Positions 417-61,250 of a DNA stretch of 64,000 nt are shown here, one piece after another (position 1 is the stretch's first letter; every line of letters starts with the position of its first letter). The stretch is from a virus. Made by a program: the position numbers and the translations under genes. Below the pieces are notes generated by a model. The model was not told where the DNA came from and made no database searches. It worked only from the letters and a program-made list of their open reading frames with translations. The stretch spans positions 45,084-109,083 of IMG/VR virus record IMGVR_UViG_3300037264_003623, one strand, 5' to 3'.

Positions 417-1606
417 AGACGTTCTACTCCAGGAAGTTCGCGAGGTTCATGGGTTCCATCCTGGCGAAGGCCACATGGGACCCGGATCTCCACCCGAGGA
501 GCGAGGGCGGGAAGTTCTCCAGGACCGAGGGAGTCTCTGAGGAGAGGCGGGTCGCGGAGAGGCTCATGGGGACCTCGGCGGATCAGCTTGAGGCGGAGGC
601 ACGGGAGACCGAGCGGGAGGCTTCCGCGCTGAGGGCGATGGGGAAGGGCGAGAAGGCCGCGATGGCCGACGCCGTGGCGAGGGACCTGATGGAGAGGGCG
701 AAACTGGCGAGGGAGCCGGTCAGGGTGTTCAGGCCGGGATCGGAGCCGAGGAGGCCCGCCCCGCCGATAGATCCCACGAGGCATCCGCAGGAGTCCGTGA
801 GGGGGAGGGCAGAGACGATGAGAAAAGCCTCGGGGAAGCCTGAGGCTTTCATCATGAACACGCGCAGGGTCATGGGGGGCAAGGGAGAGTGCCACCGAGT
901 CCTCTTCGACGACGGGACCAGGGCCGCCTACAAGCCGACGGCGGGGTCCGTCCTTGTGCAGATGGAGAAGCAGGGCCGGGGTGAGGAGATCACGATCGAC
1001 CCGAAGATCCCGGAATCGAAGCGCGAACGGGCCGTCTTCGATCTCAGCGCGATGGCCGGGTTCGACGTGGTGCCCCCGGTCGAGCTCGTGGACTACGATG
1101 GGGTGGGGTCCCCCGGGGGCGGGCACGCTATGGCATGGGTGGACGGGCAGGAGGCCATTGACATCGAGGACCAGTACTACAAGGACATCTCCGCGAACCA
1201 TCCCGACCTTCACCGGATTGCGGCGCTCGACTTCATCACGGGCAATGTAGACCGGCACCAGGGGAACTTCATGAGGGGGAAGGACGGGCGCTGGTACGCG
1301 ATCGACAATGGCCTCTGCTTCACCAGGGACATGGAGCTCGGGATGTCGTGGTCCGATGTCATGCGGAAGCTCATGATGCACGTCACGCCGCCGGAGGTGC
1401 GGGCGGAGATCGCCTCGATCGACAAGGACGCTATGGGCGGAATCATGAAGGAGGCGGGCTTCGACGCCGTGGACATCAAGGCCGCGCAGACGAGGCTGGA
1501 TGTGCTCAAGGCCTTGGGCGGGTGGGGGACGGAGGGGCAAATGTACGGGGCGGCCGAGGACGCCTACTTCCAGGCGGGTGGGCGCAGGCGGCCAGGGAGG
1601 GAATGA
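413..1606 (+). CDS. PI3/4-kinase-like (HipA-like fold) protein with HPR motif
   Basis: A 397-residue protein starting at the ATG that overlaps the previous stop. The C-terminal half carries the catalytic signature of PI3/4-kinase-like and HipA-like enzymes: DRHQGN at residues 280-285 (catalytic loop D, H, N) followed by AIDNG with D298 as the metal-binding aspartate, preceded by the hydrophobic DFITGN segment. An upstream YKP within a beta-strand-like stretch may be the nucleotide-binding lysine. Near the N terminus, HPRSEGGKF (from residue 27) matches a motif in other proteins of this window. Family knowledge predicts ATP-dependent phosphorylation of a protein or small molecule; the substrate is unknown. 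A second kinase of this kind lies at 49996. Coupled to the next gene by ATGA. Confidence 0.75.
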   Translation: MKTFYSRKFARFMGSILAKATWDPDLHPRSEGGKFSRTEGVSEERRVAERLMGTSADQLEAEARETEREASALRAMGKGEKAAMADAVARDLMERAKLAREPVRVFRPGSEPRRPAPPIDPTRHPQESVRGRAETMRKASGKPEAFIMNTRRVMGGKGECHRVLFDDGTRAAYKPTAGSVLVQMEKQGRGEEITIDPKIPESKRERAVFDLSAMAGFDVVPPVELVDYDGVGSPGGGHAMAWVDGQEAIDIEDQYYKDISANHPDLHRIAALDFITGNVDRHQGNFMRGKDGRWYAIDNGLCFTRDMELGMSWSDVMRKLMMHVTPPEVRAEIASIDKDAMGGIMKEAGFDAVDIKAAQTRLDVLKALGGWGTEGQMYGAAEDAYFQAGGRRRPGRE

Positions 1607-1923
1607 TCGTGCTCATTGGGGTAAGATGGGTGAGGGACGTGGACACCGGGCGGGATGTGTCGTTCGAGTACAGGCTGGACCCGAGGACCGGCAAGGCTGT
1701 CCAGGTCGCGGGGCCCGCGAGGGCGAACGACGAGGTGATCCTCTCCCCGTGGGATGGGGTGATGGGCCCCGAGATCGCCAAGTATCACGGGATGGATTTC
1801 AAGCCGGTTCCGAAGGGCGGGAGGAGGCTGACCCCGGACGACGGGGTTGACTTCCTTCTCGCCGTTCTCGTCAAGTACGCGAGGAACACCGGCTACGGCA
1901 GGGTCGAGCCGATCAGCCGATAG
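1603..1923 (+). CDS. Hypothetical protein, paralogue of the gene at 99
   Basis: A 106-residue protein. The ATG at 1603 overlaps the kinase stop (ATGA) and follows GGGAGG. A longer open frame runs upstream inside the kinase gene, but that part is a shadow. The pair with 99-416 is clear from the shared FEYR, DGVDFLLAVLV and RNTGY segments. Function unknown; its place in the operon suggests the same role as its paralogue. Confidence 0.8.
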   Translation: MIVLIGVRWVRDVDTGRDVSFEYRLDPRTGKAVQVAGPARANDEVILSPWDGVMGPEIAKYHGMDFKPVPKGGRRLTPDDGVDFLLAVLVKYARNTGYGRVEPISR

Positions 1924-1932
1924 GAGGATCAG

Positions 1933-3258
1933 ATGGAGACGCCGTCGAGCAGGGCCACGAGCAATCTGATTTCCAAGTCCCTGGAGACCGTCCAGGAGAC
2001 GCCGGGCCAGGTGTCCTCGAAGGAGATGCAGGACCTCTCCGCGATGATCCTGAAGGCGATGGACGACCCCGCCTTCGTCGAGACGGTCTGCCCGAGCGGC
2101 GGCTGCCCCGAGCTCCGCGGCCTCCTCCTGGAGGTGGTCGAGCGGGCCAAGGAGGAGGACGACTCCCCCGAGGTCAAGGCGTGCGTCTCGAAGAAGATCC
2201 CGATCCTCATCGAAGAGGGATATCCGAGAGCCCAAAGTGTCGCGATCGCGTTCTCGGTTTGCCGCAAGGACCCGTCCGTCGCCGACAAGGCGGTGAAGGT
2301 CGAGGGGACGCCCCGCTACATGACCGAGGCGGAGCTCCGCGCCATGAAGCCGAAGAAGCCGGAGACCGACACGGACACGGAGATCGAGTCCGCGATCGGG
2401 TGCGATCTCGACGCGCTCAACAGGACGACTTCCGTCCTGATTTCCAAGGCCGGGACCTCTGATGGCGCGAAGCTGGGGTGGGAGACCCGTAGGGGCGGAG
2501 CGCCCACTGATGAACCCAAGGCTGGGATGCCCTCCAGGCAGGAGTGGGATGGGTTCCAATCGAACGCTGATGCGGTATTCGATGTCAGCAGGGGCGCGGT
2601 CAAAGAGGTTGAACGGATCGAGGAGAGGGCCATAGAAGCGGAAGAGGAGGGTAGATCCCGCCTACATCCGTTCGGCGTGAAAGAGCCGACGACGCCGAAG
2701 GGCGTGGAGCAGGCTCTGAACAAGCTGGCGGATGTCGCGCCGAAGGCCGCTGACCTCGCGGCGAGACTGAAAGGCGTCCCTGGGGTGGACGAGGGGAAGA
2801 GGAAGGCCGCTGAGGACAAGATGCGGGGATGGAAAGGTGGGGTGCCCCGTGAGGAGATGCAGGATTTCAACGACATCGTGTCCGACATCTACACGATGGT
2901 AGACAGCGCCAGGGCGGACCATGACCCGAAGTACATGGAGGGGTCCGAGCCCGTGACGCGGCCTTCCGTGGGCAAGGAGCTCGTTCTGAACCTGGGCGTG
3001 CAGAAGCGGTTCTTGTCCCTGCAAGACCTTGAGGGATTCAAGCCGACGAAACCGGAGGACGTCCGCCCGCCACGGGAGAGCACCAGGCACGAGGGCGAGC
3101 CGGAAGACTCGGGGCTTCGTCGCCTCATCATGCCGGGATGGGCCCGAAAGGGCGGCCAGGTTGCGCCTCCCGGTGACGTCCCGAAGGATAGGATCAGGGG
3201 CGATGGCTTGACCGAGATGCTCATGCCGAGCAGGAAAGAGGACGAGCCCAAGGAATAG
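1933..3258 (+). CDS. Hypothetical virion-associated protein with GTSxGAKxGWETRR motif
   Basis: A 441-residue protein with a ribosome site (AGGAGG) before ATG 1933. The N-terminal third has paired cysteines around residues 56-80 and a compact helical look; the remainder is charged and probably extended. At residues 174-187 it has GTSDGAKLGWETRR, one of six copies of this motif in five proteins of the window. No enzymatic domain is recognised. It sits between the kinase block and other motif-bearing genes, all in one direction, which suggests a shared destination (virion or injected proteins) rather than metabolism. That role is inference. Confidence 0.75.
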   Translation: METPSSRATSNLISKSLETVQETPGQVSSKEMQDLSAMILKAMDDPAFVETVCPSGGCPELRGLLLEVVERAKEEDDSPEVKACVSKKIPILIEEGYPRAQSVAIAFSVCRKDPSVADKAVKVEGTPRYMTEAELRAMKPKKPETDTDTEIESAIGCDLDALNRTTSVLISKAGTSDGAKLGWETRRGGAPTDEPKAGMPSRQEWDGFQSNADAVFDVSRGAVKEVERIEERAIEAEEEGRSRLHPFGVKEPTTPKGVEQALNKLADVAPKAADLAARLKGVPGVDEGKRKAAEDKMRGWKGGVPREEMQDFNDIVSDIYTMVDSARADHDPKYMEGSEPVTRPSVGKELVLNLGVQKRFLSLQDLEGFKPTKPEDVRPPRESTRHEGEPEDSGLRRLIMPGWARKGGQVAPPGDVPKDRIRGDGLTEMLMPSRKEDEPKE

Positions 3259-24805: not shown

Positions 24806-25272
24806 TGCCCAGGGAAGACCCGATCCGCGAGTACTTCGAGATCGATCTCCCCGACAAGAGATTCCGTGAGCAGAACGAGCGCCTTCAGCGGAAGATCGAC
24901 GAGGGCATCGGGATGAGGGGGAGTCCGCCGCGTTTGAGGAAGACATGGTGGATCTCCACTCCAGGGATGGATTCCAAACGTGCGTTCGGTCTCTCCGATG
25001 CCATTGAGGCGCTCGACTCCCCGGACATGATCTCGGATATGGGCCACATCCCTCTGGTCCGGTGGAGCGGGTGTTTGTGGCACCTGATGGTTTCCTCCCA
25101 CTGCAACCCGGCCAGGGTGGTGTCGGCGTGCGGAGAAACCTTCCCGATGGGAGAGAGGGTGGAGGGGAAACTGGAGATCGAGCCGAACCGGAACCTGACC
25201 TGCATGGGGTGCTGGACCCACGTCGAGGCGGCCAAGGTCGCCCTGATCCTGGCGGGGGAGAGCGATGAGTGA
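24802..25272 (+). CDS. Hypothetical protein
   Basis: A 156-residue protein with GGGAGGGG before ATG 24802/24805. The C-terminal half has VSACGET and CMGCWTH, again the CG...CxxC order found in neighbouring small proteins. Overlaps the methyltransferase start by eight bases. Confidence 0.65.
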   Translation: MMPREDPIREYFEIDLPDKRFREQNERLQRKIDEGIGMRGSPPRLRKTWWISTPGMDSKRAFGLSDAIEALDSPDMISDMGHIPLVRWSGCLWHLMVSSHCNPARVVSACGETFPMGERVEGKLEIEPNRNLTCMGCWTHVEAAKVALILAGESDE

Positions 25273-26896
25273 GGCCGACCGCTTCGCCGGATTTCCATCG
25301 CCCTCGTGGGCATCGCCCGCTGGCTGGGCCCGGCTTCACCTGGGGAACTGCGTCGAGGTGATGAGGTCCCTGCCTGAGTCCTCGATCGACGCGATCGTGA
25401 CCGACCCCCCGTATGGTATTGAGTTCATGGGGAGGGATTTCGACAAGTTGGGGCAGGGGCCGCAGATGCAGGAATGGCACCGGGCGTGGGCGGTCGAGGC
25501 TCTTCGAGTGGCTAAACCCGGTGCCTTCCTTCTTGCCTTTGGCGGAACCCGGACTTGGCATCGACTTGCGTGCGCGATTGAGGATGCAGGATGGGAGATC
25601 AGGGATACTCTCATGTGGATGTACGGGCAGGGATTTTCTAAAAGCATGGATGTCTCGAAGGCGATCGATAAGGCGGCGGGGTCTGATCGGGAGAAGATCC
25701 CGGAGGGGAACTCCGTAAAGCGGATGGTGCCGGGGGCGGACCAATACAAGACTAATTCCTGGATCAAAAGCGACGATCACATGTACCAGTCGGGGCGGGA
25801 GGTTCCGGTGACGGAGGCCGCGAGGACTTGGGAGGGCTATGGCACATCGCTAAAACCAGCCTGGGAGCCGGTCGTGGTCGCCCGGAAGCCCCTGGCCGGG
25901 ACGGTGGTTGATAACGTCCTGAAGCACGGGACGGGGGCGCTGAACATCGATGGGACGAGAATCAGGATCGCGCCCACTTCTCAGGATGGCTCTCGTAGTA
26001 GTCCTGATGATAGCATTTGCGACACATGCCCTTCGCGTGAGGTTTCCCATACTGTCCGCAGCGAGGACATTCACATGGAGGCCTCGTCTGCTCCTCAACG
26101 CGACGGTCGTAGCGTCCTTCGACCCAGTGAATCCGAATATGAGATCGAGAATCAATCACGCATAGATTCTCGGGCGAGTCGTCGTCCTTCCTACCGTTTA
26201 GATGATGGACTTGCTCATGCGGAAGAAGAGCCCGACCAAGCATACGTTCAGCAACGACTCGGTGATACCGAGTCTCCCGTCCGTCAACTAAGCAGCAGGT
26301 GTATCCACGCGGGTCTTTCCACATGTTTACATCGTACTACACCACATGTTGAAAGTCAAGGCCGCTTCCCCGCGAACGTGATCCACGACGGGAGCGAGGA
26401 GGTGGTAGGGATGTTCCCCGATCGCAAGACGACCTGGATCGATCCGTCTCATGCGAACAACCGGGGCGGGGATTTCCTGGGGGCTCTTGGGCATCCCGGG
26501 ATGCAGGGGTTCAACGACTCCGGCTCCGCCGCCCGCTTTTTCTACACGTCGAAGGCTGATGCGTCCGAGCGGTGGTTCTACTGCCGGATCTGCCAGGGGG
26601 CCTACCCCGCGTCCGCGGAGCAGGGGCACCACCACGGGAAGGGGCTGGGGAAGTGCCAGCACATCTTTAGACACCCGACCGTGAAGCCCTTGTCTCTATG
26701 CTCTTGGCTCTGCCGCCTCGTCTCGATGCCAGGGGGGAGCGTGATCCTCGATCCGTTCATGGGGTCGGGCTCGACGGGCGTGGCGGCCCTCGTGGAGGGC
26801 CAGCGGTTCGTTGGGGTGGAGATGGACGGGGAGTTCTTCGCCCTATCGGCGGCCCGGGTCGCGGACGCGAAGCGCCAGCCGGGCCTCTTCGACTGA
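25265..26896 (+). CDS. DNA methyltransferase (beta-type N6A/N4C) with an in-frame antisense HNH insertion
   Basis: A 543-codon frame. The N-terminal part has motif IV TDPPY at residues 46-50; the C-terminal part has HPTVKPL and motif I DPFMGSGSTG at 496-505, with VGVEMD after it. Motif IV before motif I is the beta-class order; known enzymes of this class methylate adenine N6 or cytosine N4. Residues about 236-360 do not look like a methyltransferase: they are polar, compositionally foreign, and are the reverse reading of an HNH gene. Joining ...NIDGTRI to GRFPANVIHD gives the normal family sequence. The frame stays open across the insertion, so a full-length, interrupted enzyme could still be made. 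Confidence 0.88.
   Translation: MSEADRFAGFPSPSWASPAGWARLHLGNCVEVMRSLPESSIDAIVTDPPYGIEFMGRDFDKLGQGPQMQEWHRAWAVEALRVAKPGAFLLAFGGTRTWHRLACAIEDAGWEIRDTLMWMYGQGFSKSMDVSKAIDKAAGSDREKIPEGNSVKRMVPGADQYKTNSWIKSDDHMYQSGREVPVTEAARTWEGYGTSLKPAWEPVVVARKPLAGTVVDNVLKHGTGALNIDGTRIRIAPTSQDGSRSSPDDSICDTCPSREVSHTVRSEDIHMEASSAPQRDGRSVLRPSESEYEIENQSRIDSRASRRPSYRLDDGLAHAEEEPDQAYVQQRLGDTESPVRQLSSRCIHAGLSTCLHRTTPHVESQGRFPANVIHDGSEEVVGMFPDRKTTWIDPSHANNRGGDFLGALGHPGMQGFNDSGSAARFFYTSKADASERWFYCRICQGAYPASAEQGHHHGKGLGKCQHIFRHPTVKPLSLCSWLCRLVSMPGGSVILDPFMGSGSTGVAALVEGQRFVGVEMDGEFFALSAARVADAKRQPGLFD
25962..26324 (-). CDS. HNH endonuclease nested antisense in the methyltransferase
   Basis: A 120-residue protein on the minus strand. 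Residues 1-70 carry the HNH block: YHRVVAERMLGRALLPHEQVHHLNG, DDDSPENLCV, SHIRIH in separate pieces. A C-terminal zinc knuckle CPRCGQYGKPHAKGMCRKC may bind DNA. It has its own promoter and an ATG on the predicted +1. Its stop lies in the methyltransferase sequence, so the gene fills the insertion. Less GC-rich than flanks. Confidence 0.85.
   Translation of the reverse strand: MWKDPRGYTCCLVDGRETRYHRVVAERMLGRALLPHEQVHHLNGRKDDDSPENLCVIDSRSHIRIHWVEGRYDRRVEEQTRPPCECPRCGQYGKPHAKGMCRKCYHQDYYESHPEKWARS
26331..26359 (-). promoter_or_regulatory. Promoter of the nested HNH gene, start on the ATG
   Basis: Minus strand TTGACT (26359-26354), 17 bases, TACGAT (26336-26331), six bases, ATG at 26324. No ribosome site. 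Confidence 0.5.
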
Positions 26897-39225: not shown

Positions 39226-39729
39226 ATGTACGCGACCAAGCCATCGACGCAGGAGACCTACGAGCGCAGGATCAAGGTCTTCCGCATGAAGATGCGGGGC
39301 CTGAGCCACACGTCGATCGCCAAGGAGCTGAGTGTCACTCGGAACGCGATCATCAGGGACGCGAAGTGGATCCAGGAGCACTTCACCCAGCTCGCGGCGG
39401 ATGCCGATCGAAACTCCGAGATGGGCATGGCGATGGCGAAGCTGGAGGAGATCGAGAAGGAGGCCATGTTCAACTATTCCGAGACGGAGAACCCGAAGGC
39501 CAAGAACGACTTCCTCCTGACCGCCATCACCGCCTGCGAGAAGCGGATCAAGCTGATGATGGACGCCGGGATCATCTCGAAGGCCCCTGTGGACCTGAAC
39601 CTCACGATGGACTTCTCGAAGATGTCCACCGAGGAGTTGGTCCAGCGCAGGCGCGAGGTCGTGAACCGTCTCGCCACGTTCGGTGTGGCGGCGGCTATGG
39701 GGGCTGATGGTGAGCAAGCCCAAAACTAA
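39226..39729 (+). CDS. terS: Probable terminase small subunit
   Basis: A 167-residue protein with an N-terminal helix-turn-helix (KMRGLSHTSIAKELSVTRNA) and long C-terminal helices, the usual plan of TerS proteins. It directly precedes and overlaps TerL. TerS binds packaging sites and hands DNA to the large subunit. The family match is not strong by eye, so the call rests on plan plus position. Confidence 0.68.
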   Translation: MYATKPSTQETYERRIKVFRMKMRGLSHTSIAKELSVTRNAIIRDAKWIQEHFTQLAADADRNSEMGMAMAKLEEIEKEAMFNYSETENPKAKNDFLLTAITACEKRIKLMMDAGIISKAPVDLNLTMDFSKMSTEELVQRRREVVNRLATFGVAAAMGADGEQAQN

Positions 39730-42700
39730 GGTCCCGAAGCCGGACATGGCGGCGCTCCGGAACGACCTGACCTACCTCGCCCGCCTCGACGGCGAGATCT
39801 CGGGGCGGATCAAGTCTCAGGACCCGAGGACGTATGGCCTTCCTGACCTCCTCCGACCCAAGGAGGACGGTGAGACGGAGGAGCAGCTTGTCGATCGGCA
39901 GAACCGGGAGATCAAGGACCTGATCGAGAAGCAGCTCTGGGTCCTGAAGGACGCGAGAAGGCTCGCGATCAAGCTCTCGCCCCCGATGGTCGACTTCATC
40001 GCCACGATGTTCTACCGGCGGGCGAACCTCGCGATCCTGTGGAAGGGGCGCGGCTCCGGCGGGACCCTGTGCGCGGCCATCCTCGTCTGGCTCTGCCTCG
40101 TCTACCACCGGATGTCGTTCACCAGCATGGCCGGGTGCCTCCTGCCGGGCACGCTCGTCTCCACAAGGAGGAGGGGGTGGGTGCCGGTGGAGGACGTGTC
40201 TGATGATGATGAGGTGGTGGGGCGGGACGGGGTGGTCCGCAGGGTAGTCTCGAAGACCTCGAAGGAGTGGGACGGTCCGATCACTAAGTTGGAGCCCCAC
40301 GGTTTCGACGGGAACTTCTTCACCTCTGACCACCGAATCTGGGTCCTTCGTGATGCGGTCGAAGAGGATAAGCGCGGGCATCTTGTTGGGCAGGATATTC
40401 GGCGGTGGGACACCATGTCTCCGGAATGGGTCCCGTGCGGAGAGGTCACGAGGCGGGACGTGTTTGTCCTCCCGAGGCCGAAGCGGACGGGCGTCCTGCT
40501 GCCGTCCCTGATGGTGTCGACCGGCGTCGGGGGCAAGGGGGAGAAGGTGGAGGTGCCTTGGACGCCGGATCTCTGCCGATTCATCGGGTACTGGCTTGCC
40601 GAGGGTAGCGTCTATCGACTCAAGGATGGGGGTCGATTTGTTCGGTTCGATGTGGGGAAGCGGGATCAGTGGCTTGATGACCTTCAGGATCTGATCGTGC
40701 GGTTGTTCGGCAGGAAGCCTTCCTACGATGAGCCGGGGGGGGATCTGACACTTGAGGCGAGGGTGCGGTTCGGGTCGAAGGATGTGGCCCAGTTCCTGGA
40801 GGACAACTTCGGGACCGGGGCGGTCGGAAAGCGCATCCCGTGGGAGATGGTGGTGGGTCTCGACGACGAGTGCGCGATGGCCCTACTCGCCGGTTTCCTT
40901 CGGGGAGATGGGGCCGTGGACATGACGAGCCGAGGGGGGCTCGACGTGTCTCTTTATACGGTCTCCCCTGCCCTCTCGTCCGGGATCTACTGGCTGTCTT
41001 TGCGCCTTGGCCTGGTCCCGTCGCTGGGGATCTCGAAGCCGAAGAATCGCAGCGGCTTTCACAAGGTTCACGACGGGTGGAGGATGCGGTACGGGTCCAT
41101 CGACGCCGATCGTCTTCTGGAGGAGGCGTTCGGTTGGCGCTCTCAGAAGGAGAGGGTTTCGAGGCAGCGTAGGGTGTGGGTCTCCGAGGACCGGGTGTAC
41201 GTCGGCGTGAGGGACGTGAAGCACTCGACCTATCAGGGCGAGGTGTGGGACCTTGAAGTCGAGGGGGACCCGTCGTTCTCCGTTCCGATGATGGAGGTTC
41301 ACAACTCCACCGAGCAGGCTAAGCTGATCTACCAGTACACCAAGTCCTTCTGGGAGTGCTTCCCGGTCCTGTCGGAGTCGCTCCTTGAGGTGGACCCCCT
41401 CCAGACCGAGACCAGGCTGAAGAACGGGGTCATCCTCAAGATCATCAGCGCGTCGGAGAAGCAGACACGCGGCAAGCACAACCCCGGGTTCATCGTTGAC
41501 GAGTCCTGCCAGTCGTCGCAGAACGTGGACTACCTGATCCAGGCCGCCATGCAGGGCTCGATGTCCGAGCCCAACCACATGGTGGTGGTGCTCTCGACCT
41601 TCCACTACCCGATTGGTCTGTTCCAGGAGCTGTGGGACTACGCCGAGGAGCGCGGGTTCAAGCGGTTCAACTGGGACTGCGTCCTGCCCGGAACGTGGAT
41701 CATCACTGCCAGGGGCCTCATCAAGATCGAGGAGGTGGTGGCGGGGGATCTCGTCCTTGCCGAGAACGGCAGGTTCGAGACGGTGGAGAGGGCGTGGTCG
41801 TCGCAGGTCTCGGGCGGGGCTGTCCGAATCTTTCCGTATGGATGGACCGAGGGGATCGAGACTACACCAGACCATCGTTTCAAGGTTCGTAGGGATGGCC
41901 GGGACGATTGGGTCGAGGCGTCGAAGATCCGCGAGGGGGACGATCTTGTTTTCCCGCGTCCGCAGAGGGCGGGGGTTTCGGTCGATCATCTGGGGTCGCA
42001 GATCTCGCCGGACTTCGCCCGTTTTCTCGGGTACTGGTACGGGGACGGGTGGCTTGATGGGAACCGGGTCGGCATCTCGTTCGGAGATCCCGAGAAGTTC
42101 AAGGAGGACTACCTGTCGCTCGTGGGCGGGCTGTTCAAGGCCGACGTTCGTCTGAGGCATAGGGAGCCCAACGAGCAGGGCAGGTTCGACAATGGGCCGC
42201 TCGCTGACTGGATGAGGACGGTTGGGTATCGGGGCGGGGAGAAGCATGTCCCGATCGAGATGGTCCTTGGGATGTCGGACGACGCGCTTCGGGAGTTCGT
42301 GACCGGGATGCTCAGGACGGATGGGTGCGTGACGTTGGCGAACGGGGTGCCGGTCGTGAAGTTCACCCAGGTCTCCTCAAGCGTGACGTGCGCCGTGTTT
42401 CTTGCGTGCGCCAGGCTTGGGGTGTTCATGGCCGTGGACAGGAGGCGGCAGTCCACCTTTGTCATCGAGGGGAGGGAAGTATCGGGCCAGGACTGGTGGA
42501 TGCTTCGGTCGGGGGGGAGGGACACGGATCGGCTCATGGGGTGGCTCGGGGAGTCTACGGATAGGGTTATGAGGAATGGGCAGCACTCCCTGGATGGGGA
42601 CGTGTATCTTACGCGGGTGAGGAAGGTCGAGCGGAGAGAGTACGCCGGACTCGTATTCGATCTGGCGGTCAAGGACGTCCACTCGTTCTCGATGCCCTGG

Positions 42701-45079
42701 GCGGTGGCCCACAACTGTTACGACTCGATGTCCCCCTGCAACGAGGGGCTGCTGACCGCCACGGAAGGAGACCCGGACGCCCTGGAATTCTGTCGGACGC
42801 AGTGCCCGCTGACGGAGAAGCGGTCGAACCTCGACGCCGAAGGCAACCAGGATGGGTGGAAATACATCGGGTGCGGCGGGAAGGCACGGCACTCCGAGGG
42901 GTTCCAGACCAGGGCCAACATGATCCTGGCGAAGAAGATGAACCGGGGGACGGACGTCTTCGAGAACGAGTACGAGAACAACCGGCCCAAGTGGATGCAG
43001 CCGATCTACAACCCCGAGCTCGTCGACCAGATTCTCGTGCCCGAGACGTGGCCGCTGCCATCGGCCTCGGACGCGGAGGCCCCTGACGTCGTGGCGGGTA
43101 GGGTCATGGGTGATAGCGGGTTCGAGATCGTCGAGAAGTCGGTGGGGATCGACTGGGGGTTGGAGGGGCAGACCGCTCTGGTCCTGGCGGCCCTGATTCG
43201 GTTCCATCGTTCGAGGCCGGTGGTGCCCTCCAAGGGTCTCCCGGATGGACCGCCGGTCGACTGGTGCATCGGGATCCTGGAATCCGAGTTCCTGTCGGGG
43301 AAGCTCACGTCCGAGGCCATTAAGGTCCTCATGATGTGGCAGGAGATGTACGGGGAGAACAACTTCTTCGTCTACGGCGACGCGAGCCACCCATTCAACA
43401 ACCTGGAGGTCGAGCAGGCCGGGTTCAACACCAACAACGTGCAGTTCGCCAAGTGGAAGGACTATGGGGTGGGGAACTGCATCAAGTATCTCGTGACGCC
43501 GGGCAAGCTGTTCATCAGGGAGAACCTGCACACCCTCCTGGATCAGATGAAGCGGTACAGGAGGGACAAGTTCGGGAGGCCGATTAAGAAGGACGACCAC
43601 GGTCCTGACGCATGGATGTCCTATCTCGATGCCAAGACGAGAGTTATAACACGTTCGGGATGGACCCCGGTGGGAAGGCTGGGTGTGGGGGTTGAAGTTC
43701 TGACGCATGCCGGAAGGTTTCGTCCGATCGTCAGGTATGAGCCCGCCCGCTACACGAGAGGGAGTCTTGTGGAGGTGAACTTTGCGGGTCAGACGCATCC
43801 GGTCGATGCCCATCGAGTGACTCTTGAACATCCGTTCCAGCTTGATGATGGTTCATGGGTTGAGGCTGAGAACCTGAAGTCGGGGATGAGGGTCCGGTGT
43901 CTGGCCTCTCGATGTGCTAGGTGCGGGATGAAGATCCCCTGGTCGCGCAAGTTTTGTGACGGGTGCGTAGGGAAGGGACGTAACGTGAGATGGAAAAATC
44001 CTGGGGAGCGCGAGCGGGTAGAGGCCGAAAAGAAGGCGGAGGCTCTCCGATCCGAATACGCGACGGGAGCGCGAGACGCGGCCACGAACGCAAGGGCTGC
44101 GACAGCGGCTCGGGCCGACATGATCCGGTCGAACCCTGGGGAGAGAGAGAAGGTCCGAGAACATCTGAGAGCGATTCTTCCGCTGGTGAATACGCCCGAG
44201 AAGAGGGTACGGCAGTCACATCTGATGAAGATGCTTCACGCCAGGGAGGGATTCTTTGATCATCTTCGTACCCTTGAAGGGAGGGAGAATGCCCGTCAGC
44301 GGGTCATCGCACGGATGCTTGCTGATCGTCAGATTCCCTTCAACTGCCGTTTGAGGCACTTCACCGACATCGAGCGGGAGATGTTCGACTCGTTCGTGAG
44401 GGCGGGATTCGAGCCGGTTCATAATCTTCGGGTTGGACGATGGTTTCTTGACGTTGCTCTCCCGGAGTTGAAGGTCGCGGTGGAGTGCGACGGGGGAAAC
44501 TGGCACAACTCGAAGCAGGCTCGGGAGAGGGACGCCAAGAAGGACGCCTACTTGAGGGGACACGGATGGGAGGTGTTCCGGTTTTCAGGGAAACGGATCA
44601 AGGACGACGTGGACGGGTGCCGGGACGATGTTCTGCGGGTTGCGGCCAACCACGAGGGTCTCTACGAGTTCACTTCGATCGAGGTCGTCTCGGTGAAGAT
44701 CGTCGAGATGAAACGGCCACGGACGGCGTACCACTTTGAGGTGGAGGAGGACCGGAGCTACGTGGCCCGTGGGATCGTCTCCCATAACTGCTCGATGCTC
44801 CACTACCGGTTCGAGGAGAGGTTCCACGAGGTGTACGACATCGAGGCGGCCCCGCCGAAGGCCGCTTCCAGCGCGATGCCCATCCCCGCCCCCGTGGCGG
44901 GGGCGTTCGGGGTTGCCCCAGTCACCTGTTCGCCCGACTTCGGGGGGGATTCCTTCTCCCAGCCGGTCCTGTTCGGCGGCGTCCAGGCCCCTGCGATGGA
45001 TCGTCCGGCTGGTTCTCCTATTGACACAAGGGGCAAATCACGGAAGACTGGTGGTAACGGTTCCGTGGTCGTCATCTGA
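39707..45079 (+). CDS. terL: Terminase large subunit interrupted by three inteins
   Basis: A 1790-codon gene that would give about 664 residues after splicing. Extein 1 has the ATPase start with K113-G-R-G-S-G-G-T, a deviant Walker A with the lysine in front, as in lambda gpA, instead of GK(S/T). Extein 2 has Walker B FIVDE and the coupling motif VVLSTFH. Extein 3 has the nuclease aspartates in VGIDWG, YGDASH and DHGPDAWM. Extein 4 is the C-terminal end with a proline/alanine-rich tail. Packages DNA into proheads and cuts it. Each intein sits beside a conserved motif, so splicing is required for activity. ATG 39707 overlaps the TerS end; GTG 39710 is possible. Confidence 0.92.
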   Translation: MVSKPKTKVPKPDMAALRNDLTYLARLDGEISGRIKSQDPRTYGLPDLLRPKEDGETEEQLVDRQNREIKDLIEKQLWVLKDARRLAIKLSPPMVDFIATMFYRRANLAILWKGRGSGGTLCAAILVWLCLVYHRMSFTSMAGCLLPGTLVSTRRRGWVPVEDVSDDDEVVGRDGVVRRVVSKTSKEWDGPITKLEPHGFDGNFFTSDHRIWVLRDAVEEDKRGHLVGQDIRRWDTMSPEWVPCGEVTRRDVFVLPRPKRTGVLLPSLMVSTGVGGKGEKVEVPWTPDLCRFIGYWLAEGSVYRLKDGGRFVRFDVGKRDQWLDDLQDLIVRLFGRKPSYDEPGGDLTLEARVRFGSKDVAQFLEDNFGTGAVGKRIPWEMVVGLDDECAMALLAGFLRGDGAVDMTSRGGLDVSLYTVSPALSSGIYWLSLRLGLVPSLGISKPKNRSGFHKVHDGWRMRYGSIDADRLLEEAFGWRSQKERVSRQRRVWVSEDRVYVGVRDVKHSTYQGEVWDLEVEGDPSFSVPMMEVHNSTEQAKLIYQYTKSFWECFPVLSESLLEVDPLQTETRLKNGVILKIISASEKQTRGKHNPGFIVDESCQSSQNVDYLIQAAMQGSMSEPNHMVVVLSTFHYPIGLFQELWDYAEERGFKRFNWDCVLPGTWIITARGLIKIEEVVAGDLVLAENGRFETVERAWSSQVSGGAVRIFPYGWTEGIETTPDHRFKVRRDGRDDWVEASKIREGDDLVFPRPQRAGVSVDHLGSQISPDFARFLGYWYGDGWLDGNRVGISFGDPEKFKEDYLSLVGGLFKADVRLRHREPNEQGRFDNGPLADWMRTVGYRGGEKHVPIEMVLGMSDDALREFVTGMLRTDGCVTLANGVPVVKFTQVSSSVTCAVFLACARLGVFMAVDRRRQSTFVIEGREVSGQDWWMLRSGGRDTDRLMGWLGESTDRVMRNGQHSLDGDVYLTRVRKVERREYAGLVFDLAVKDVHSFSMPWAVAHNCYDSMSPCNEGLLTATEGDPDALEFCRTQCPLTEKRSNLDAEGNQDGWKYIGCGGKARHSEGFQTRANMILAKKMNRGTDVFENEYENNRPKWMQPIYNPELVDQILVPETWPLPSASDAEAPDVVAGRVMGDSGFEIVEKSVGIDWGLEGQTALVLAALIRFHRSRPVVPSKGLPDGPPVDWCIGILESEFLSGKLTSEAIKVLMMWQEMYGENNFFVYGDASHPFNNLEVEQAGFNTNNVQFAKWKDYGVGNCIKYLVTPGKLFIRENLHTLLDQMKRYRRDKFGRPIKKDDHGPDAWMSYLDAKTRVITRSGWTPVGRLGVGVEVLTHAGRFRPIVRYEPARYTRGSLVEVNFAGQTHPVDAHRVTLEHPFQLDDGSWVEAENLKSGMRVRCLASRCARCGMKIPWSRKFCDGCVGKGRNVRWKNPGERERVEAEKKAEALRSEYATGARDAATNARAATAARADMIRSNPGEREKVREHLRAILPLVNTPEKRVRQSHLMKMLHAREGFFDHLRTLEGRENARQRVIARMLADRQIPFNCRLRHFTDIEREMFDSFVRAGFEPVHNLRVGRWFLDVALPELKVAVECDGGNWHNSKQARERDAKKDAYLRGHGWEVFRFSGKRIKDDVDGCRDDVLRVAANHEGLYEFTSIEVVSVKIVEMKRPRTAYHFEVEEDRSYVARGIVSHNCSMLHYRFEERFHEVYDIEAAPPKAASSAMPIPAPVAGAFGVAPVTCSPDFGGDSFSQPVLFGGVQAPAMDRPAGSPIDTRGKSRKTGGNGSVVVI
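40136..41305 (+). mobile_element. TerL intein 1 with LAGLIDADG endonuclease
   Basis: 390 residues: begins C-LLPGTLV (block A), FTSDHRIWV (block B), two dodecapeptide motifs FIGYWLAEGSVY and LLAGFLRGDGAV, and ends EVWDLEVEGDPSFSVPMMEVHN in two blocks, with Ser as +1. All splicing residues (C1, TxDH, HN, S+1) are present. Confidence 0.92.
41678..42715 (+). mobile_element. TerL intein 2 with LAGLIDADG endonuclease
   Basis: 346 residues: C-VLPGTWI start, TTPDHRFKV block B, FLGYWYGDGWLD and FVTGMLRTDGCV dodecapeptides, LVFDLAVKDVHSFSMP and VAHN end, Cys as +1. It is diverged from intein 1 although both are LAGLIDADG types. Complete. Confidence 0.92.
43619..44788 (+). mobile_element. TerL intein 3 with Vsr-like (EDxHD-type) endonuclease and unusual first residue
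   Basis: About 389 residues. The start reads DAWM-SYLDAKTRVIT, so residue 1 is Ser or Tyr, not Cys; aligning TRV with block A of other inteins favours Tyr. Block B is VTLEHPF, the end is SYVARGIVSHN with Cys +1. Between lie a zinc knuckle (CARCGMK, CDGC), two NPGERE repeats and a nuclease domain GRWFLDVALPELKVAVECDG, NWHN, YLRGHGWEVFRF, the layout of Vsr/EDxHD homing nucleases. Block F has YHFEV where Asp is usual. Confidence 0.82.
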
Positions 45080-57811: not shown

Positions 57812-58165
57812 ATGGGAGCTTCCGAAGGAACCTACCAGCCGGAACGCGGCTACAAGAATGGGGCGGGGGATTTCATTCTCGAAGCCGGGGCGCGATATCA
57901 CCCTTTCCGCCTCACCACGGTCCTCTGGCAGCGCAAGAACGTCAACGCCGTGGACATCCATCTGGAGATGCTCGACGGCGACAAGGTGTTCACCATCGAC
58001 GAGTATCTCACCTGCACGGACAAGCACTATTCCTGGCCGAACGAGGATAGCCCATGTCCTCTCGCTCTCGTGCCTTCGCAGAGGGTTAGGCTCCGAGTGA
58101 CCGGGGCCAATGCGACGGAGGAGCAGTCGGCGGTGGTCGTATGGGCGGAGCTGGGCGCGGTGTAG
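57812..58165 (+). CDS. Hypothetical virion protein
   Basis: A 117-residue beta-rich protein with GGGGAGTAG before ATG 57812. No domain recognised; immediately upstream of the portal. Confidence 0.66.
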   Translation: MGASEGTYQPERGYKNGAGDFILEAGARYHPFRLTTVLWQRKNVNAVDIHLEMLDGDKVFTIDEYLTCTDKHYSWPNEDSPCPLALVPSQRVRLRVTGANATEEQSAVVVWAELGAV

Positions 58166-58184
58166 ACCCGGCTTGGGGGATTGC

Positions 58185-61100
58185 ATGGACGGCGACGGGA
58201 TCAGAGAAACGCTCGGGGAGGCGCTCATAGGCAAGGATGTTGGCCCCGATGCAATGGAGAACCTAGTGAAAGTTCTCCTGGTGGGCGGGGATGTCGAGGG
58301 GCAGAGTCCTCGGAAGAAGAAGAACAACGAGGAGCCGGAAGCGCCGCCCGCCACGAAACAGCTCGACGATTTTCAACAGATCGTCGGGGAGTTCGTCCCA
58401 CCCGCCTTCAACCCCGGTATATGGGCACAGACGCTCAAGGTCAACACTCGCCTCGCCAGGTGTATCCGGTCGTTCGCGAGGAACACCGTCGGCCTTGGGT
58501 GGAGCATCGAACCCATCCACCCGGTCACGGAGGAAATTCCGAAGCCGATCCGCGATCTCATCACGAAGCAGACCGAGGCGCTCCGGGAGTTCTTCAACCA
58601 CCCGAACCCGACGATACCGATGACCGAGATCTTCTACCTGGAGAAGGTGGATGAGGAGGCCACGGGCAACGGGTACATCGAGGTGGTGCGGAACAACTCG
58701 GGGAAGATCTCGAAGATGTTCCACGTCCCTTCCATCACAGTCCGGAGGAGGATCATCCGGGAGGAAGGGAAACCGGTGGTGTCGGGGTTCGTGCAGATCC
58801 GTGGGAGCCAGAAGAGATACTTCAAGGACTTTGGCGACAAGCGGGTGATGGATGCCTTCAATGGGAAGTACCATGACGGGAAGGAGCCGCTTTCGGCCGA
58901 TCATCGCGCCACCGAGATCCTCCATTTCCTGGTCTACGACCCGGGGAGCTCCTACTACGGGGCCCCGAGGTACATCCCGGCGGCGACCGCCATCGCGGGC
59001 AACCGTCAGGCCGCCATCCGCAACGTGAACTTCTTCGAGAATGACGCCGTCCCGCGCATGGCGCTCCTCATCTCCGGTGGGAAGCTCACCGGGGACTCCG
59101 TGCAGCAGATCGAGGACTTCGTTCGGGCCAAGGGCCGCGGCGTCGAGAACGCGCACAGGGTGATGATCGTCCAGGTGGAGCCGATCAAGGTCGGGTTCCA
59201 GCAGCAGAACAAGGTCATGGTGGACCTGAAGCCGCTGACCGTGGGCGTGACTGAGGACGCCAGCTTCTCCCAGTATCGGGAGGCGAACGACGAGGAGGTC
59301 CGCGAGATATTCGGGCTGGGCCAGATCTTCTTCAAGGCGGAGGGCGCGAACCGGGCGAACGCGCAGGTCTGTCTCGCGGGGCATGTCTCTATCCCCCTCC
59401 TCGATGGACGGGTTATCACGATGAGGGATCTCACCCGGGAATTCGCGGACGGGAGGAGGTTCGCCGTCTATTCCCTGGACCATGCGGGGAATGTCGTCTG
59501 CGGATGGGCTCACCATCCGAGGAAGACCAAAACCGACCAGACCTATGATGTCATTCTCGACTCGGGGCAGGCCGTCAGGGCCAACGCGAGTCATCCGTTC
59601 ATGCTCCGGGATGGGACGTATTGCCCCGTGGGCAACCTCAGGCCAGGGATGAGCCTGATGCCCTGGTATGTCCGGATGGGGTTCAAGAACGCCTTGAGCG
59701 TCGATGCGAGCACTTACGGATACTGGGAGATCTACAACCCTGCATCGGACAGATGGGATCTTGTGCATCGGAGGATCCTTGCGGGCGAGGGCGTGGACCT
59801 TCGCGGGATGTCGGTCCATCATCGAGACGGGAACCCGTTGAACAACGACTTGTCGAATCTGGACGCGCTAACGTGCTCGGAACATATCCGTCTGCACAAG
59901 GGCGGGAGGCGTGGTGAGTACTTCGGTTCGGATCACCCAGGGTTCAAGCACTTCGATTTCGATGAGGTGGTGAGGGTCGCGGCCACCTGCGGGGGTCGTC
60001 CGACGCTCCTGAGGCGACTGGAGATCGGCTCTTCGGCGCTCTACCGGGTCCTCAAGGAGCATGGACTGACCTATGAGGAGTTCCGATGGAAGCACATGGG
60101 GCCGAAGAATCGCCCTCCAGGGGGGAGGTCTCACACAAGGTTCCGGAAGGACGCGAGTTTTGAGCATCTCGCGGAGAAGGCACCGGGTTGCCGGTATCGG
60201 AGGGATTTGATCTCGGCCACGGGGTACTCCGCGAACCTCATCCTCCGTCTCATGAGGGAGCACGGGTACGACTACGCGAGATTCCGTGCGGAGTTCATGG
60301 GCATGAAAGCCCCCGTGATGAATCATCGTGTGGTGGCCGTGGTCCCCGCCGGGATCGAGGATGTGTTCGACCTCACGGTGGACCGGTATGAGAACTTCGC
60401 CGTGGCGGCGGGGGTGTTCGTCCACAATTCTCGCGAGATCACCAACGAGCAGGAGCTTGAGCCCGATCGCCTCTCGAAGGAGTACGTCATCAACCAGACC
60501 ATCGTGGAGGACATCCTCTTCCAGCAGATGGGCGTGACAGGCGATGAGTCTCCCGAGGAGGTCGAGGAGTTCCACAAGAACATCCACGTCCGGTTTCGGT
60601 TCGCCAGGCTTACGCTGACCGATCCGCTCGACGAGGCGCGGATGAACCAGATGTACGCCTCGCTCGGGGCAATCACCCCGAACGAACTCCGCGAGAGCCT
60701 CGGCAAGCCGCCGTTCCCGAAGGACTACTACTTCGCCGACAAGCCTTTGGCGATCGCGATGGCCGAGCTCACGGCAGGGCTCGCGCTTGCCATCGCCCAG
60801 AAGGACGAGGAGAAGATGCCGCAGGTCGCCGCCCCCGGTGCGCCTCCAGGGGTGGGGGTTCCAGGGGAAGAAGGCGTACCGCCGGAAGGGGTGCCTGCCG
60901 AGGAGGAACCTGAGGAAGAGGAAGCCCCGCCTGACGAGATGAATGGGCGGGAGCCGAAGGGCGTCGCTGGGATGCCTCCCATCCCTGGGGCACCGGGGGC
61001 GACACCGATCCCGGGGCTTCAGGTCATGCCGAAACCCGGTGGAGTCAAGAAGCCTTTGAGGAAACCCAGGCCCCCGAAACCAACACAGGGTATTGCATCT

Positions 61101-61250
61101 CTCCACGGGGTGCCGGTATCATCGAGGAAGACGATGGTTCCGAACCCACAGGCGTTCGGGATTCTTTCGGAGCTCATGAGCGACATCAGGAAGTTCGCCC
61201 TCGCGGGGGTGAGCTTTGCAAAGGGGGATGGAGATGGACAAGGTCGCTGA
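58185..61250 (+). CDS. Portal protein interrupted by an intein
   Basis: A 1021-residue precursor, about 668 after splicing. ARNTVGLGWSIEPI, EIFYLEKVDEEATGNGYIEV in pieces, MFHVPSITVRRR, GSSYYGAPRYIPA and REIFGLGQIFFKA are portal hallmarks (PBSX/SPP1-like rather than HK97). It forms the dodecameric entry ring that TerL docks to. The intein cuts just after NRANAQV. The C terminus has a proline/glutamate-rich tail that may extend into the head. It overlaps the protease gene by 17 bases. Confidence 0.9.
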   Translation: MDGDGIRETLGEALIGKDVGPDAMENLVKVLLVGGDVEGQSPRKKKNNEEPEAPPATKQLDDFQQIVGEFVPPAFNPGIWAQTLKVNTRLARCIRSFARNTVGLGWSIEPIHPVTEEIPKPIRDLITKQTEALREFFNHPNPTIPMTEIFYLEKVDEEATGNGYIEVVRNNSGKISKMFHVPSITVRRRIIREEGKPVVSGFVQIRGSQKRYFKDFGDKRVMDAFNGKYHDGKEPLSADHRATEILHFLVYDPGSSYYGAPRYIPAATAIAGNRQAAIRNVNFFENDAVPRMALLISGGKLTGDSVQQIEDFVRAKGRGVENAHRVMIVQVEPIKVGFQQQNKVMVDLKPLTVGVTEDASFSQYREANDEEVREIFGLGQIFFKAEGANRANAQVCLAGHVSIPLLDGRVITMRDLTREFADGRRFAVYSLDHAGNVVCGWAHHPRKTKTDQTYDVILDSGQAVRANASHPFMLRDGTYCPVGNLRPGMSLMPWYVRMGFKNALSVDASTYGYWEIYNPASDRWDLVHRRILAGEGVDLRGMSVHHRDGNPLNNDLSNLDALTCSEHIRLHKGGRRGEYFGSDHPGFKHFDFDEVVRVAATCGGRPTLLRRLEIGSSALYRVLKEHGLTYEEFRWKHMGPKNRPPGGRSHTRFRKDASFEHLAEKAPGCRYRRDLISATGYSANLILRLMREHGYDYARFRAEFMGMKAPVMNHRVVAVVPAGIEDVFDLTVDRYENFAVAAGVFVHNSREITNEQELEPDRLSKEYVINQTIVEDILFQQMGVTGDESPEEVEEFHKNIHVRFRFARLTLTDPLDEARMNQMYASLGAITPNELRESLGKPPFPKDYYFADKPLAIAMAELTAGLALAIAQKDEEKMPQVAAPGAPPGVGVPGEEGVPPEGVPAEEEPEEEEAPPDEMNGREPKGVAGMPPIPGAPGATPIPGLQVMPKPGGVKKPLRKPRPPKPTQGIASLHGVPVSSRKTMVPNPQAFGILSELMSDIRKFALAGVSFAKGDGDGQGR
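59370..60428 (+). mobile_element. Portal intein with HNH endonuclease
   Basis: 353 residues: C-LAGHVSI start, RANASHPFML block B, HNH block MSVHHRDGNPLNNDLSNL with SEHIRLH, and end VFDLTVDRYENFAVAAG with VFVHN and Ser +1. Complete splicing residues. The HNH block is unlike those of the TerL inteins. Confidence 0.9.

Follow-up and report, generated by a model that had tools for sequence, protein, structure and literature searches.

The window analysed here is a 64,000-nucleotide stretch of a 109-kb virus record (IMGVR_UViG_3300037264_003623), in which a DNA methyltransferase gene holds, on its opposite strand, an open reading frame (ORF) for an HNH endonuclease. Both ORFs lie exactly where the original prediction had placed them, and the methyltransferase frame stays open through the reversed HNH gene, as it had also claimed. 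The features of the locus are as follows:

25265-26896, plus strand: β-class N6/N4 DNA methyltransferase ORF, 543 aa, open through the insert (Pfam, Foldseek)
25403-25414, plus strand: motif IV, DPPY, aa 47-50, invariant in a 54-sequence alignment
25943-25963, plus strand: conserved NIDGTRI codons, the left boundary and probable target region
25964-26359, no strand assigned: insert between NIDGTRI and GRFPANV, 396 nt or 132 sense codons without a stop
25962-26324, minus strand: HNH_3 endonuclease ORF, 120 aa plus TGA, with an HNH core and a Cys-rich, zinc-ribbon-like C-terminus
26325-26359, minus strand: putative leaderless promoter, TTGACT (26359-26354), 17 nt, TACGAT (26336-26331), 6 nt, ATG
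26360-26896, plus strand: C-terminal half of the methyltransferase, GRFPANV to stop
26750-26779, plus strand: motif I, DPFMGSGSTG (sequence, 54-sequence alignment)

The methyltransferase was identified by Pfam (N6_N4_Mtase, E = 6.9e-28) in agreement with PHROGs, and the best Foldseek match of its model was CcrM (6pbd), to which it also has a profile match at E = 3.3e-32. Its fold and its motif order, DPPY and then FxGxG, place it in the β-class. The order IV to I is common to CcrM and M.RsrI, both β-class N6-adenine methyltransferases, from which the window enzyme differs by a 132-residue insert between the motifs. Motif IV and motif I are both present, consistent with the earlier claim that the motifs on either flank look intact. 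Compared with its relatives, the window methyltransferase forms the longest terminal branch of the tree and deviates at 13 of 119 conserved columns (median, 2); given this fast evolution and these unusual residues, its activity may be relaxed or its function may be in the process of being lost.

The host of the virus is likely an actinomycete, since the window's portal protein is closest to those of Streptomyces phages (about 30% identity). The portal ORF (58110-61250) contains an in-frame, HNH-bearing intein (Intein_splicing, aa 429-773; HNH_3, aa 559-592). A 1798-aa ORF at 39683-45079, with Intein_splicing, LAGLIDADG, Hint and MTES_1575/DUF559-type nuclease domains and a weak terminase match, probably encodes a terminase interrupted by two or more inteins.

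The HNH ORF matches HNH_3 in Pfam (E = 5.8e-8), again with PHROGs in agreement, and the H, N and H residues of the domain are conserved. Its AF2 model folds with a mean pLDDT of 85.6 (core, >94), and the best Foldseek match of that model is I-HmuI (1u3e; E = 0.023, probability 0.94). Together with its stop codon, the ORF occupies 363 of the about 396-398 nt of the insert. The insert itself falls between motifs IV and I, in a variable part of the β-class enzyme that presumably serves target recognition. Read in the sense direction, the insert was modelled by AlphaFold as coil with a pLDDT of about 35, compared with >90 for parts of the methyltransferase core. These ~132 extra residues are predicted to form a disordered loop, and because the loop is modelled as coil, the methyltransferase may tolerate it as a floppy addition. 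The earlier suggestion that an enzyme carrying a foreign loop could be produced is plausible.

Using tblastn, we found a second antisense HNH, 58% identical, inside the annotated 517-aa methyltransferase of Mycobacterium phage MKC-IRE-02 (PP711298; L008). A later scan with a six-sequence HNH alignment added two IMG/VR contigs with the same arrangement (L128 and L129; HNH identity 60% and 57%), both of which had been missed by tighter HNH patterns run on viral contigs, while genome contigs and plasmids scanned for the HNH yielded partial matches to the HNH domain and nothing more. The collections searched contain only four antisense copies in total, and these are related to one another. All four occupy the same site, NIDxTR(I/V) to GR(W/F)PxN, in an identical antisense phase with the first codon positions facing each other. 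We also looked for relatives with the loop but without an HNH on the other strand, named by the original prediction as the contrary case, and found none; nor did we find, for the methyltransferase gene of the window, a close relative that is uninvaded. The element is absent from mycobacteriophages closely related to MKC-IRE-02, where the loop measures 102-123 nt and varies between phages. Behind the element of L129 lie about 30 residues that are perhaps the original loop, which suggests that insertion occurred directly after NIDATR(I/V) and that the old loop was lost in the remaining copies.

Several patterns point to movement of the element between genes. In the methyltransferase tree, MKC-IRE-02 clusters with PopTart and Batiatus, neither of which is invaded, and stands well apart from the window sequence; the invaded state of the two corresponds to two changes of state. 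HNH proteins are 55-72% identical versus 45-60% for the methyltransferase cores, with the HNH value higher in six of six pairs. Around the insert, the MKC-IRE-02 gene looks like a recombinational mosaic, with a left flank nearest to StAnnes (dS 0.10) and a right flank nearest to PopTart (dS 0.18). Finally, the threonine of NIDxTR is found in all four invaded genes but in only 2 of 54 search-matched uninvaded genes, which mostly have cysteine. As sequence patterns, the shared threonine, flank mosaic, excess of HNH over methyltransferase identity and tree placement are what homing with co-conversion would be expected to leave, and the patchy distribution of the antisense HNH is compatible with homing as well.

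We then asked how often an open sense frame would arise by chance, the count that the original prediction had proposed, by shuffling the synonymous codons of the HNH gene and counting stops in the methyltransferase frame. For the window copy, 2.3 stops were expected and none was observed (P(0) = 0.02); across the four copies the expectation was 1.8-2.6 stops per copy, with none in any (P(0) = 0.021 for the window, 0.077 for MKC-IRE-02, 0.050 for L128 and 0.025 for L129). The window and MKC-IRE-02 have a joint P of 0.0015, and all four copies combine to a Fisher p of 9.5e-4, or a plain product of about 2e-6 if independent, but the four probabilities are not independent because the copies are related. 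As a correction to the original prediction, the single-copy chance is only modest, since this antisense phase is intrinsically stop-poor; dipeptides where it could hold a stop number 10 in the window copy and 13 in MKC-IRE-02.

The result draws its strength from the homologues and a set of control HNH genes. Among 16 non-hidden HNH genes, 2 of 80 alternative frames were stop-free (one itself-hidden gene was left out). None of the 98 surveyed methyltransferase loci had an HNH splitting the gene, and the host frame is also open around the same-strand hidden HNHs of this methylase family (Bipolar, Starcevich, L002, L022, L030 and cyanophage Cr-LKS3). A combined test on seven hidden HNHs gave p = 3e-4; hidden HNHs outside the surveyed family were kept out of the tests because they had been found by searching for spanning ORFs. 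Since the four diverged copies are all stop-free despite changes at 47-63% of HNH third positions between copies, openness of the sense frame appears to be maintained. The original prediction had offered selection and a stop-free nuclease frame as alternatives; the few stop-capable dipeptides and the four diverged open copies indicate that both contribute.

The most serious competing explanation is that the open frame is a by-product of a stop-poor phase in a dead or dispensable methyltransferase, with no selection for openness. Per-copy P(0) values of 2-11% under several null models are in its favour, as are the long branch and unusual conserved-column residues of the window enzyme and the dispensability of the methylase, which is not essential because close relatives of phage ShiLan lack it (PMC11855218). 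We nevertheless consider this unlikely, given that the frame is open in every antisense copy (four of four) and in every same-strand copy of the methylase family, that the combined tests and the 98 unsplit loci point the same way, that the catalytic motifs are intact and that the methyltransferase flanks of MKC-IRE-02 have a dN/dS of 0.06-0.49.

Far less probable is that the methyltransferase has gained a new specificity loop in the antisense-encoded peptide, kept for altered DNA recognition. The stretch from motif IV to motif I, into which the insert falls, is indeed variable, with loops that differ even between close relatives, and sense-loop identity is slightly above the shuffle null in most pairs. 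Yet synonymous codons are likewise shared beyond the null (34 of 64 versus 24.6 expected), so the excess is matched by extra identical codons and is not separable from common ancestry. The sense loop also differs most at methyltransferase codon position 2, which is the HNH third position, and it is predicted to be disordered. We therefore see no good sign of selection on its amino-acid sequence, which is not clearly conserved. Least probable of all is splicing, with the insert as a group I intron or intein and the HNH as its mobility gene: HNH genes are frequent in introns and intein domains occur in the window's portal and terminase-like ORFs, but the HNH ORF nearly fills the insert and so leaves no space for a ribozyme or Hint domain, the insert has no Rfam intron match and almost no non-HNH sequence, Pfam gave no Hint or splicing domain in the methyltransferase ORF, and the sense loop is modelled as coil.

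On the minus strand before the HNH ATG, all four copies share the pattern TCAACAT-N4-TG-N2-GTANNNT-N6-ATG. TANNNT stands exactly 6 nt before the HNH ATG in four of four copies, whereas in the window and L008 it does so at about 0.5-1% of ATGs; this promoter match was picked out after the fact. In the window copy, TTGACT lies 17 nt upstream of the -10. TANNNT-N6-ATG is the layout of a leaderless actinobacterial promoter. TANNNT is the principal -10 motif of M. tuberculosis, in which ~1/4 of those genes that have a primary start site are leaderless (PMC3898074). From this layout we infer that the HNH transcript is leaderless and antisense, with its own promoter. In L129 (p = 0.0007) and MKC-IRE-02 (p = 0.005), the HNH 5' end carries, across the putative promoter, an inverted and imperfect copy of the NIDACRI-coding target of uninvaded genes (AACAT..CCTGCCG). 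In the window and L128 this copy is absent or weak and not significant. A comparable target resemblance serves as an autorepressor operator in I-TevI (PMC2988022). By this analogy, self-repression of the HNH through a target-like operator is only a lead, because the match fails in two of the four copies.

We consider it rather likely that the element is a minimal homing endonuclease gene without intron or intein, lying antisense in the target-recognition region of the methyltransferase with the host gene read through it. On this reading of the sequences, a small HNH gene probably copies itself into new sites, and the DNA that it occupies probably belongs to two genes, one on each strand. The HNH protein would be produced from its own short antisense leaderless promoter and would cut methyltransferase genes that lack the element, at or close to the conserved NID(A/G)CR(I/V)-coding site, after which recombinational repair would copy the element in and co-convert the flanks. 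The methyltransferase would be read straight across, gaining a ~130-residue disordered loop and presumably retaining residual activity; the insert would be tolerated owing to the open host frame and the disorder of the added residues. The sense strand would have been kept stop-free because copies with an open host frame persisted, while its amino-acid sequence would hardly matter.

The HNH resembles I-HmuI-type homing endonucleases in its HNH core with a DNA-binding extension, but I-HmuI is intron-encoded and the window HNH has no intron. It is like the free-standing homing endonuclease gene segD of T4 in having no intron or intein and in that segD can be antisense to its neighbours, but segD is described as a free-standing gene (PMC2988022), whereas the window HNH lies wholly inside a still-open host ORF. 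The closest parallel is the "ShiLan domain", the name under which same-strand, out-of-frame HNHs in this methylase family were published, with the suggestion of leaderless translation (PMC11855218; PMC9957025). The two types share the methylase family (PopTart gp63, ShiLan gp65; PMC11855218), related HNHs (47% over 73%), an HNH ORF wholly within the methylase ORF in a different frame, an open host frame, no intron or intein and a patchy distribution. In contrast, the ShiLan HNH shares its strand, though not its frame, with the methylase, has 195 aa and a GTG start and is inserted after the LKPxxEP region, whereas the HNH of the window, MKC-IRE-02, L128 and L129 is on the minus strand, and that of the window is preceded by TANNNT-N6-ATG and sits between NIDxTRI and GRxPxN. 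We found no mention of the antisense version in either paper: PMC11855218 does not contain the words 'antisense', 'reverse' or 'opposite', and PMC9957025 does not contain 'antisense' or 'opposite'. Within the literature compared, the antisense orientation, insertion site, conserved antisense promoter and frame-openness statistics appear novel, although a prior account in a related actinophage-intein preprint is possible.

Hidden HNHs also occur in other settings. Same-strand hidden HNH ORFs with open host frames were found in C5-cytosine methyltransferases (L110, 1171-2598; L157, 1530-3713), and same-strand hidden HNHs were found at several loop sites in SNF2-type helicase and N6/N4 methyltransferase hosts, a cyanophage included (L193, 1954-4080; L200, 1714-3279; L022; L030; L109). 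In L186 and L188, the large subunit of a terminase (minus-strand ORF, 576-3188) includes an intein splicing domain, with an opposite-strand HNH_3 ORF (plus strand, 2189-2791) inside the intein, and the terminase/intein frame is stop-free across it, which suggests that the antisense arrangement is wider than one host gene. More tentatively, there may be a class of antisense, promoter-carrying homing genes that sit in open host frames without splicing and avert harm by keeping the complementary strand translatable, possibly with self-repression through a target-like operator.

Mobile genes that interrupt coding genes usually depend on a splicing device, either an intron or an intein. For the element described here, the sole device is apparently the readability of both strands, making it a clean system for studying the origin and upkeep of antisense overlapping genes. 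The putative leaderless antisense promoter is a suggested answer, for the antisense variant, to the question of how a hidden HNH is expressed, and annotators would do well to check both strands of oversized phage methyltransferases.
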